DNA of 64,000 nt from Anaerohalosphaeraceae bacterium (GTDB lineage: Bacteria > Planctomycetota > Phycisphaerae > Sedimentisphaerales > Anaerohalosphaeraceae). Location of the stretch: the NCBI GenBank assembly GCA_037479115.1, contig JBBFLK010000015.1, positions 1-64,000 of the forward strand. Reading direction: 5' to 3'. The notes below the pieces were generated by a model, which saw only the letters and a program-made list of their open reading frames with translations, was not told where the DNA came from and made no database searches. How positions within the stretch are numbered: the first letter of the stretch is position 1; each line of letters starts with the position of its first letter. Of the stretch, positions 23,171 to 24,840 are shown one piece after another. Made by a program: the position numbers and the translations under genes.

Positions 23171-23414
23171 CGGATTTCCGCTGATTTTGGCCGGATTCTT
23201 TGCCCCGGTGGATATCGGCACCACGCCGGTTTCTCTGCTGTGGATGTTTCCGCTGCTTTTGTCGATTGCCGTCGTCTATAAAGCCACACGGCTTCGGGTT
23301 CTTTTCTGGAAATCGTTTTCTTTGGAAGTACTCATTTTATTCCTGACCCTGAGCGGTTTTATGATTTTGGCCGGTGTGGTTTTGAACCTGATTGTCTGGC
23401 TGATAACCAGTTAG
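23163..23414 (+). CDS. Small two-helix membrane protein
   Basis: An 83-residue protein starting at an ATG at 23163 with GGAGGAGG at about 4 nt. It overlaps the previous gene by 8 bp. Two helices are visible (PVSLLWMFPLLLSIAVVY and LEVLILFLTLSGFMILAGVV). It is the last gene of the SurA-like operon. Its TAG stop overlaps the stop of the convergent rnc gene (TTAG at 23411-23414). No family recognised. Confidence 0.7.
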   Translation: MADGFPLILAGFFAPVDIGTTPVSLLWMFPLLLSIAVVYKATRLRVLFWKSFSLEVLILFLTLSGFMILAGVVLNLIVWLITS

Positions 23415-24133
23415 GTTGCCGGCGGTTCTGCAGGCCGGTTTCCCTCGTCCTGCAGAACCCCCAATTCAATCAGGGCTTTCAGGGCCGCTCGTTGTTCGGC
23501 CTCCTTTTTGGTAGCTCCCCAGGCACTCGAAAACATCCGCTGTCCGACGACGGCGCAGACTTCAAAGCATTTGTTATGGTCAGGTCCCTTTTCGTCCAGA
23601 AGCCGGTAAGAAGGGGTGGCGTTTAGATGCCGCTGACTGTATTGCTGGAGAATGGATTTAAAATTCTCCAGATGGCCCTGGGCGTCGGCGGTTTCCAGAT
23701 AAGGGCCGAAGTGTTTGCGGACGAAGTGCTCCGCCGCGGAAAAGCCCCCGTCCAGATAAATCGCCGCCAGAACCGCCTCCAGCGTGCCGGCTGCAATCGA
23801 CCCGTTTAGGGCCCGGGAGCCGTTGGTCCCTTTGCCCACCTGAATAAAATCCAGCAGACCCAGCGTACGGGCAATCTGGGCGCAGATTTTTCGCGAAACC
23901 AGCACGCTTTTGAGCTTGGTCAAATCGCCCTCCAGATAATCCGGAAAACGCTCATAGAGGCACTGGCAAATCAGAAGCCCCAGTACGGCATCGCCCAAAA
24001 ACTCCAGCCGTTCATTGCTGGCCAGGCGGGAATTGGCCCAGGACGAATGAATCAGGGCCTCTTCGAGGAGGGCCGGATTGCGGAACTGATACCCCAAACG
24101 TTCTTCTGCCTGCTGGAGAAGCTCTTTGTTCAT
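23411..24133 (-). CDS. rnc: Ribonuclease III
   Basis: A 240-residue RNase III that cuts double-stranded RNA in rRNA precursors and mRNA leaders. The catalytic signature [14 protein letters not shown] lies at about residues 39-52 and a second acidic cluster near [22 protein letters not shown]-terminal double-strand RNA-binding domain (about 155-225) ends with [19 protein letters not shown]. The ribosome site before the ATG at 24133 is weak. The mRNA leader contains a 23-position hairpin 24 nt upstream, a likely target of the enzyme itself. Confidence 0.96.
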
Positions 24134-24157
24134 TTGTTCGGTACGGTCTCGTTGTCC

Positions 24158-24215
24158 GCAAGCAGATTACGAAAGCCGCTTTATCCGGAGGCAGCGGCTT
24201 TCGCAATGTGCTTGC
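24158..24215 (-). promoter_or_regulatory. Long hairpin in the rnc mRNA leader
   Basis: In the minus-strand RNA, the arms encoded at 24193-24215 and 24158-24180 pair over 23 positions: 21 Watson-Crick pairs, one G-U and one C-C mismatch, with a 12-nt loop. The single difference that is a mismatch in the plus-strand RNA is a G-U in the rnc transcript. No U run follows, so it is not a terminator. About two helical turns of double-stranded RNA is the size RNase III cuts. Confidence 0.7.
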
Positions 24216-24238
24216 CTCGATTTTGTCTTAAATACGCC

Positions 24239-24267
24239 TCTTTACAATCTTTGCAAGAGGTTGTCAA
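24239..24267 (-). promoter_or_regulatory. Promoter of rnc
   Basis: A perfect TTGACA (minus strand, 24267-24262), a 17-bp spacer and TAAAGA (24244-24239). Transcription from about 24232 gives a 100-nt leader containing the hairpin at 24215-24158. Confidence 0.55.
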
Positions 24268-24284
24268 TCTGAAAATTCTTCTTT

Positions 24285-24629
24285 TCAGGATTGCACCTGA
24301 GCCATTTGCAGACCCGCCAGCGCAAGAAATTGGTCCTCCACAAACGTAAAAACGGTGTCCAGACCGGTAACCAGAAAGATGTTTTTGGTCTGCGGCTGCA
24401 CACAGCAGAAAACCAGTTTGCGGTGGTTGTCATGCAGAATCTTGCGAAGCTTCAGCAGCTTGGCAAGACTCGAGGAGGTCACAATCTCCACGTCTGAAAA
24501 GTCAATCACAACATCCTGTTCCTTTTCGTATGAAACCATCTGGCAGACGGTGAGAATCTCTTCCCCCAGGTCCGGCTCCGGGGCTAAGTTGACCAGTATG
24601 ACATTTTCAGACCATCGCTGGATTCCCAT
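24285..24629 (-). CDS. STAS-domain protein (anti-anti-sigma-like)
   Basis: A 114-residue single STAS domain. The core is VIDFSDVEIVTSSSLAKLLK, in which the phosphorylatable serine region of SpoIIAA-type antagonists is occupied by TSSSLAKL. It then continues KILHDNHRKLVFCCVQPQTK. Such proteins release sigma factors or regulate PP2C/HPK-type partner switches; no kinase partner is adjacent. The ATG at 24629 has GAGGAG at 7 nt and is preferred over a longer start at 24701. It is encoded upstream of rnc on the same strand but separated by an rnc promoter. Confidence 0.8.
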   Translation of the reverse strand: MGIQRWSENVILVNLAPEPDLGEEILTVCQMVSYEKEQDVVIDFSDVEIVTSSSLAKLLKLRKILHDNHRKLVFCCVQPQTKNIFLVTGLDTVFTFVEDQFLALAGLQMAQVQS

Positions 24630-24840
24630 AGTTTGGCTCCTCTTATGCGAATTTTCTGAAATAGTTTTCTGCCTTTCATATCGTCTGAATAGCCCTTCCA
24701 ATTCACAAAAAGCCCCTATTTTTCCATATTTGCCTGTTTTGGCAGGCTTATCGGACGTTCTGGTTCTTTAATTGGTCTTTTTTGCCCTTTATGGGCTCCG
24801 GCCCGATTTCCTTAAAAACGGGAAAAAGGCAACCTGAAAA

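Follow-up and report, generated by a model that had tools for sequence, protein, structure and literature searches.

A conserved hairpin in the leader of the RNase III gene of Phycisphaerae and its likely role in rnc autoregulation

In the planctomycete DNA analysed here, the RNase III gene (rnc) is preceded by a hairpin, a structured element that acts in cis within the rnc message and has been selected as RNA. This is concluded from the covariation of its stem, its steady place, the predicted promoter before the stem and its tie to rnc. The element belongs to the class Phycisphaerae, in which it is widespread, not universal and linked to rnc. By analogy with other bacteria, autoregulation of rnc by RNase III cleavage is likely. 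The leader element had been proposed in a preliminary description from one genome; this claim is now strongly supported and extended to the class. The features in the window, i.e. the whole stretch of DNA that was analysed (64 kb), are as follows.

23411..24133, minus strand: rnc, RNase III of 240 aa with an RNase III domain and a dsRNA-binding domain (Pfam, NCBIfam and PDB alignments)
24134..24157, minus strand: spacer of 24 nt from the hairpin to the start codon (sequence, fold)
24158..24215, minus strand: rnc leader hairpin (inverted repeat, fold, covariation in relatives, covariance-model matches)
24239..24244, minus strand: putative weak -10, TAAAGA, 17 nt from the -35 (sequence, inference, relatives)
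24262..24267, minus strand: putative -35 hexamer TTGACA, perfect (sequence, promoter-like pairs in relatives)
24285..24701, minus strand: upstream STAS-domain gene in its longest ORF reading (PF01740, E 2.4e-9)

The observed hairpin upstream of rnc was confirmed. It lies between the 3' end of the STAS-domain gene and the ATG of rnc on the same strand, the identity of rnc being given by PF14622 and by TIGR02191 at 225 bits. On the minus strand, two arms of 23 nt each (GCAAGCACATTGCGAAAGCCGCT at 24215-24193 and AGCGGCTTTCGTAATCTGCTTGC at 24180-24158) flank a loop of 12 nt (24192-24181). In the rnc RNA the 23 stem positions consist of 21 Watson-Crick pairs, one G-U and one C.C. A nearly perfect stem of 23 positions placed 24 nt before the rnc start had been claimed and was measured as such; the plus-strand A.C mismatch considered to be rescuable is indeed the G-U of the rnc RNA, while the other mismatch (C.C) remains. 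A listing of inverted repeats in the window, limited to arms no more than 60 nt apart, gave 19 entries with the hairpin in first place. Folding of the rnc transcript strand gave -48.8 kcal/mol (z -4.37) with none of 200 shuffles as good, against -44.9 kcal/mol (z -3.00) and one of 200 shuffles for the opposite strand. No second full copy of the hairpin was detected in the same genome, where matches elsewhere were restricted to 14-20 bases.

The -35 hexamer is combined with a poor -10 element, and the pair TTGACA/TAAAGA was not listed by a consensus promoter scan. From the usual distance between a -10 element and the start of transcription, the 5' end of the message is predicted near 24232, which leaves 17 nt ahead of the hairpin. 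The leaders of relatives were analysed with a promoter rule that demanded a T at the last -10 position, hence the window's own pair was not picked. Sigma-70-like promoters with at least 9 of 12 matches within 75 nt before the stem were predicted in 52 of 71 distinct leaders, compared to 8% of mononucleotide shuffles, and all 12 positions matched in 15 of the 71. The end of the -10 is separated from the stem by a median of 18.5 nt (60 leaders scoring at least 8). As judged from these predicted promoters, which also make the weak promoter of the window credible, transcription of rnc probably starts 10-20 nt upstream of the stem. In the claim of a TTGACA promoter, the perfect -35 stands and is backed by the relatives, while the poor -10 and the absence of the pair from the consensus scan weaken it; a transcription start downstream of the stem, envisaged in the preliminary description as an objection, is not what the predicted promoters indicate. 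On the other side of the stem, 60 of the 68 distinct spacers to the start codon are 17-32 nt long. A Shine-Dalgarno-like core was found in 34 of the 68 (21% in shuffles), and the stem precedes this ribosome site. A separate inverted repeat, CCTCTT...AAGAGG (24237-24260 of the window), is located within the predicted rnc promoter, in its spacer. It was seen in the related locus L019 and by eye is absent from L020 and L021, so that it extends no further than the closest relatives.

The distribution of the element was investigated in Sedimentisphaerales, an order of Phycisphaerae (Planctomycetota). A protein search for RNase III in 59 genomes, the own genome included, identified rnc in 58, and all 58 leaders were read. 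In 40 of them rnc is preceded by a stem that shares core and register with the stem of the window, namely in all 34 leaders of the own family (f1, with the own genome), in the single leader of f3 and in all five of f7. The stem is therefore present in related rnc leaders, as the preliminary description had called for, and it extends to other orders of Phycisphaerae. The element is absent from the rnc leaders of three families of the same order, f2 (6/6), f4 (5/5) and f6 (1/1), which correspond to loci L046, L048, L052, L055, L056, L062, L063, L065, L066, L071, L074 and L075; the f2 leaders appear short, with the promoter near the start codon. The six leaders of family f5 (L067-L070, L072 and L073) display a diverged element at the same place before rnc, with a loop of 16-35 nt and no STAS match upstream. 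In four of them the stem is diverged and its core differs, as in CGAAAATGGCTT...AAGCCCTTTTCG of L068, with scores of 18.8 to 36.8, above every shuffle. Leader L070 scored 13.1, against 13.7 for the top shuffle of all loci, and L072 failed the stem score and is alike by eye. With a stem called at a score above 10, 98 of 129 loci were retained, L070 being not above chance by shuffles and the rest taken having at least 18.8. The stem-bearing loci comprise 69 distinct arm pairs, and the loop varies from 4 to 35 nt over the 98 loci.

A STAS match (anti-sigma antagonist-like) was detected upstream of rnc in 81 of the 129 loci, some of which come from one genome, with at most 1500 nt of upstream sequence examined per locus. 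Within that stretch, 26 of the 98 stem-bearing loci showed no STAS match. As the stem is seen with and without STAS upstream, the element goes with rnc and not with STAS.

Compensatory changes in the rnc leaders of relatives, the check suggested at the outset, were detected. In a first alignment of 40 sequences (39 distinct), 84.4% of the cells pair, and the covariation of 0.245 was reached by none of 500 shuffles (0.161 on shuffling). With 65 distinct class-wide stems, 83.5% of the cells pair, compared to 76.1 in shuffles and 33-43% in slid registers, and the covariation rose to 0.308 against 0.180 (0/500). Two-sided changes were found in 15 of the 23 pairs (11.9 in shuffles, with 9 of 500 shuffles reaching 15) and in 152 cells, against 70.9 +- 9.5 (0/500). 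Because related sequences inflate such counts, the pairs were placed on the RNase III tree, on which 33 branches with two-sided events keep the pair, against 3, 6, 6 and 9 in slid registers. The pair counts used the named structure from the window and are biased that way, which is answered in part by the shuffle, slide and tree controls. RNAalifold kept 9 of the 23 pairs on alignment A1, a shortfall perhaps caused by mismatches splitting the helix. Compensatory base changes beyond chance, as expected of a structured RNA, are thus present.

The anatomy of the stem is uneven. Pairs at positions 5-6, 13-16 (CGAA/UUCG) and 20-22 are near-invariant, while positions 7-8, 12 and 17-18 are weakly paired or unpaired. 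The two-fold symmetry of the stem is weak in pairing (r 0.66, permutation p 0.058) and nil in sequence, which counts against a dimeric reader. The proposal that the fold favours the rnc strand holds in its direction, since G-U exceeds A.C both in changes from Watson-Crick pairs on the tree (53 versus 34) and in cells (150 versus 66), but the preference is modest by events.

Two covariance models were used to follow the element further. R1 was built within the own order, while R2 is class-wide and was partly trained on genomes that it matches. In its own order R1 matched 117 of 161 genomes at E <=1, and 101 at E <=0.01 by count of the listing. Genomes without an R1 match included G030 (no rnc match either) and G145 (57% complete) in f1, and several rather complete genomes of f7, e.g. 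G079, G098, G108 and G122. In the own genome, the two R1 matches are both strands of the single palindrome at 24158-24215. Class-wide, 85 of 397 genomes were matched by R1 at E <=0.01, of which 20 lie outside the own order, and 15 of these 20 matches are upstream of rnc. Since these genomes all lie outside the order from which R1 was built, the test is independent. The remaining five matches (L118, L119, L121, L128 and L130) are away from rnc and were taken as chance.

R2 matched 43 of 198 genomes of the class at E <=0.01, with an rnc match in 187 of the same 198. The coordinates, together with fetched sequences for doubtful cases, located 42 of the 43 matches upstream of rnc, a proportion with some circularity, as training sequences had come from 26 of these 43 genomes. 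Among the genomes outside the training set, 16 of 17 had the match beside rnc; G004, one of these, has arms equal to those of the window. In G178, also beside rnc, the palindrome was matched on its opposite strand. The lone exception is G297, which has an R2 match and no rnc match in the genome. In a sample of 392 genomes of the phylum, R2 gave seven matches at E <=0.001, all in the own order, and R1 nine at E <=0.01; two of the latter (L109 and L110), outside the class and not beside rnc, were taken as chance.

Leaders from other families were scored in 29 of 40 cases, 11 being left out as no start codon was found by the rule. Five of the 29 scored above 20 and above their own five shuffles: L224 (f16), L228 (f18), L229 (f19), L231 (f21) and L239 (f26); L234 (f23) reached 15.9. 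R2 matched L229 well (34.1 bits), L239, L228 and L234 weakly, and left L224 and L231 unmatched; in the f5 leader L070 it gave 25.5 bits. The element adjoins rnc in families f1, f3, f5, f7, f9, f16 and f18, is found in a single leader of f19 (L229), and is tentatively assigned to f21 and f26. The second feature expected of a structured RNA, a constant association with one gene in different lineages, is thus observed.

A stem of 23 bp suits RNase III. Where a stem of two turns accompanies the gene of a stem-binding enzyme, the simplest reading is an operator for that enzyme. It is considered probable, from the analogy with known systems, that the rnc hairpin is such an operator, read and most likely cut by RNase III, with decay of the message following and lowering the level of the enzyme. 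The rnc mRNA would start about 10-20 nt before the stem, which would then form its 5' end, and RNase III would recognise the stem, with its roughly two helical turns. Whenever unoccupied RNase III is abundant, it would engage, and most likely cut, the stem; the protective 5' structure would be removed and the message exposed to decay. With the enzyme occupied by rRNA and further substrates, the rnc message would be spared. RNase III as the reader, its cutting and the sign of the control are what we infer in this scheme.

The rRNA genes were also considered. For 13 rRNA loci, taken from 8 genomes, long duplexes between the flanking sequences were computed. Mimicry of pre-rRNA stems by the leader hairpin was rejected, as R2 gave a single match on these loci, with E 0.96; with this near-blank result, a common RNase III motif is not indicated at the rRNA loci. 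Two of the 13 loci, L263 and L268, contain the 3'-arm word AATCTGCTT in their 23S trailers, which was taken as chance. In G010, assembled as one contig, the 16S and 23S rRNA genes (L253 and L262) are unlinked, about 86 kb apart.

The metal site of RNase III bears on cutting. In E. coli, residues E41, D45, D114 and E117 hold two metals, D114 being one of the four ligands (PMC6121014). At the position of this usual metal-binding Asp, the window RNase III has a Gly (residue 116). Across 107 loci of the class, some from the same genome, position 116 is occupied by G (65), A (40), C (1) or S (1), and Asp is found in none of the 107. Residues E41, E44, D48, E68 and E119 are conserved throughout (107 of 107 loci), as are the equivalents of E. 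coli E41, D45 and E117. In the named set of comparison loci (L153-L212 minus the planctomycete L155 and L203, 58 in total), the D114 position carries D in 44, N in 8, G in 3 and a gap in 3; in the other 22 loci, nearly all from planctomycetes, it carries A in 8, G in 5, D in 5, N in 3 and C in 1. Since the catalytic Asp is missing in RNase III of the class, the E. coli mechanism is not to be assumed, and binding without efficient cutting is possible. The RNase III of some other bacteria also lacks the Asp, hence its loss need not mean inactivity.

It is conceivable, though unlikely, that RNase III with one metal ligand missing binds the stem uncut, or cuts it very poorly, and represses or protects its own message. 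The replacements at position 116, with the other counted acids kept, would agree with this, and the weakly paired stem positions could mark a bound, uncut site. Against it speak the retained equivalent of E117, the other bacterial enzymes without Asp, and the rRNA flanks, whose long computed duplexes would still need processing. A low probability is likewise given to the broader proposal of an undescribed RNA family of Phycisphaerae with a sequence-specific core, in which an RNase III deprived of one of its four metal ligands would control rnc by binding or very slow cutting, unlike the cleavage of E. coli. The near-invariance of CGAA/UUCG exceeds what an enzyme reading shape would need, and so counts against RNase III as the reader. 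The families f2, f4 and f6 and the f7 genomes without the element, and the near-blank R2 result at the rRNA loci, weigh against the operator reading as well. Another RNA-binding regulator could read the hairpin and make rnc respond to some signal, and the strong conservation within the paired arms, with C13-A16 and their partners and G5-C6 nearly invariant, would favour it. This is doubtful, as the matches outside the training sequences stand at rnc in 16 of 17 cases (R2) and 15 of 20 (R1), which is simplest if the product of the gene is the reader.

That the stem is a passive 5' structure, which simply shields the message from end-dependent decay, appears quite improbable: its place shortly after the -10 and upstream of the ribosome site would be suitable, but such a stem would not need a conserved sequence, nor would its tie to rnc be expected. 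Very improbable is a feature acting at the DNA level, either a terminator of the upstream gene, a site for a dimeric transcription factor or a mobile palindrome. The hairpin is a near-palindrome and its antisense strand also scores; however, a predicted promoter lies between the upstream gene and the stem, the loop length varies, compensatory changes extend over the whole stem with the excess of G-U over A.C cells mentioned above, and the own genome holds a single copy. An intrinsic terminator was rejected since no U-tract follows the stem in the window and just 13 of 68 distinct spacers have at least 5 T in the 10 nt after it, and a repetitive palindrome or MITE since the sequence occupies a single place in its genome. 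The reading of the hairpin as an operator for RNase III is thus retained as the preferred one. A leader hairpin found in many families of one class suggests an old and steady circuit. Dozens of co-varying candidate RNase III sites form a natural library for the rules of recognition, and in a lineage of RNase III with an altered catalytic site the question of cutting versus binding can be tested directly.

In E. coli, the 5' UTR operator of rnc, named rncO, was reportedly described by Matsunaga and colleagues in 1996, and we take rncO to be an Rfam family. For the rnc leader element, no Rfam match at gathering score was obtained; among the 11 matches up to E 10 (24100-24330) rncO did not appear, and the best one, to a microRNA family with E 0.034, was far below its cut-off. 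Titles and beginnings of abstracts in the open-access literature contained no report of such an rnc element, and no open-access paper covering both Phycisphaerae and RNase III was found. The RNase III of E. coli binds its own mRNA at a 5' UTR structure, which it cleaves, and rapid decay of the message is the consequence (PMC5371410). The planctomycete element shares with rncO its position, as a 5' UTR structure of rnc ahead of the start codon (24 nt of spacer, with a predicted transcription start), and the proposed control of the message by its own product. It differs in being one hairpin of 23 positions with a conserved core.

Autoregulation of absB/rnc in Streptomyces coelicolor is said to have been reported by Xu and colleagues in 2008. 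RNase III of S. coelicolor cuts its own polycistronic transcript at two sites, one of them upstream of rnc, with cuts reported in loops; that account names no conserved leader hairpin, unlike what is seen for the planctomycete rnc (PMC10126417). In Staphylococcus aureus, RNase III cuts within the coding region of the rnc mRNA (PMC3386247). The control of the own mRNA through a stem is the proposed likeness, whereas the planctomycete stem is a leader hairpin. A further parallel is the rne-II motif, which presumably lies before rne. It is tabled as a candidate structured RNA of Pseudomonadales (PMC2864571). Both are candidate structured RNAs linked to an RNase gene in one bacterial group, but rne-II goes with the RNase E gene, so that enzyme and RNA are unrelated. 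Autoregulation of RNase III has thus been described in three distant models, each with a different site, and the leader hairpin of Phycisphaerae is likely to serve the same end.
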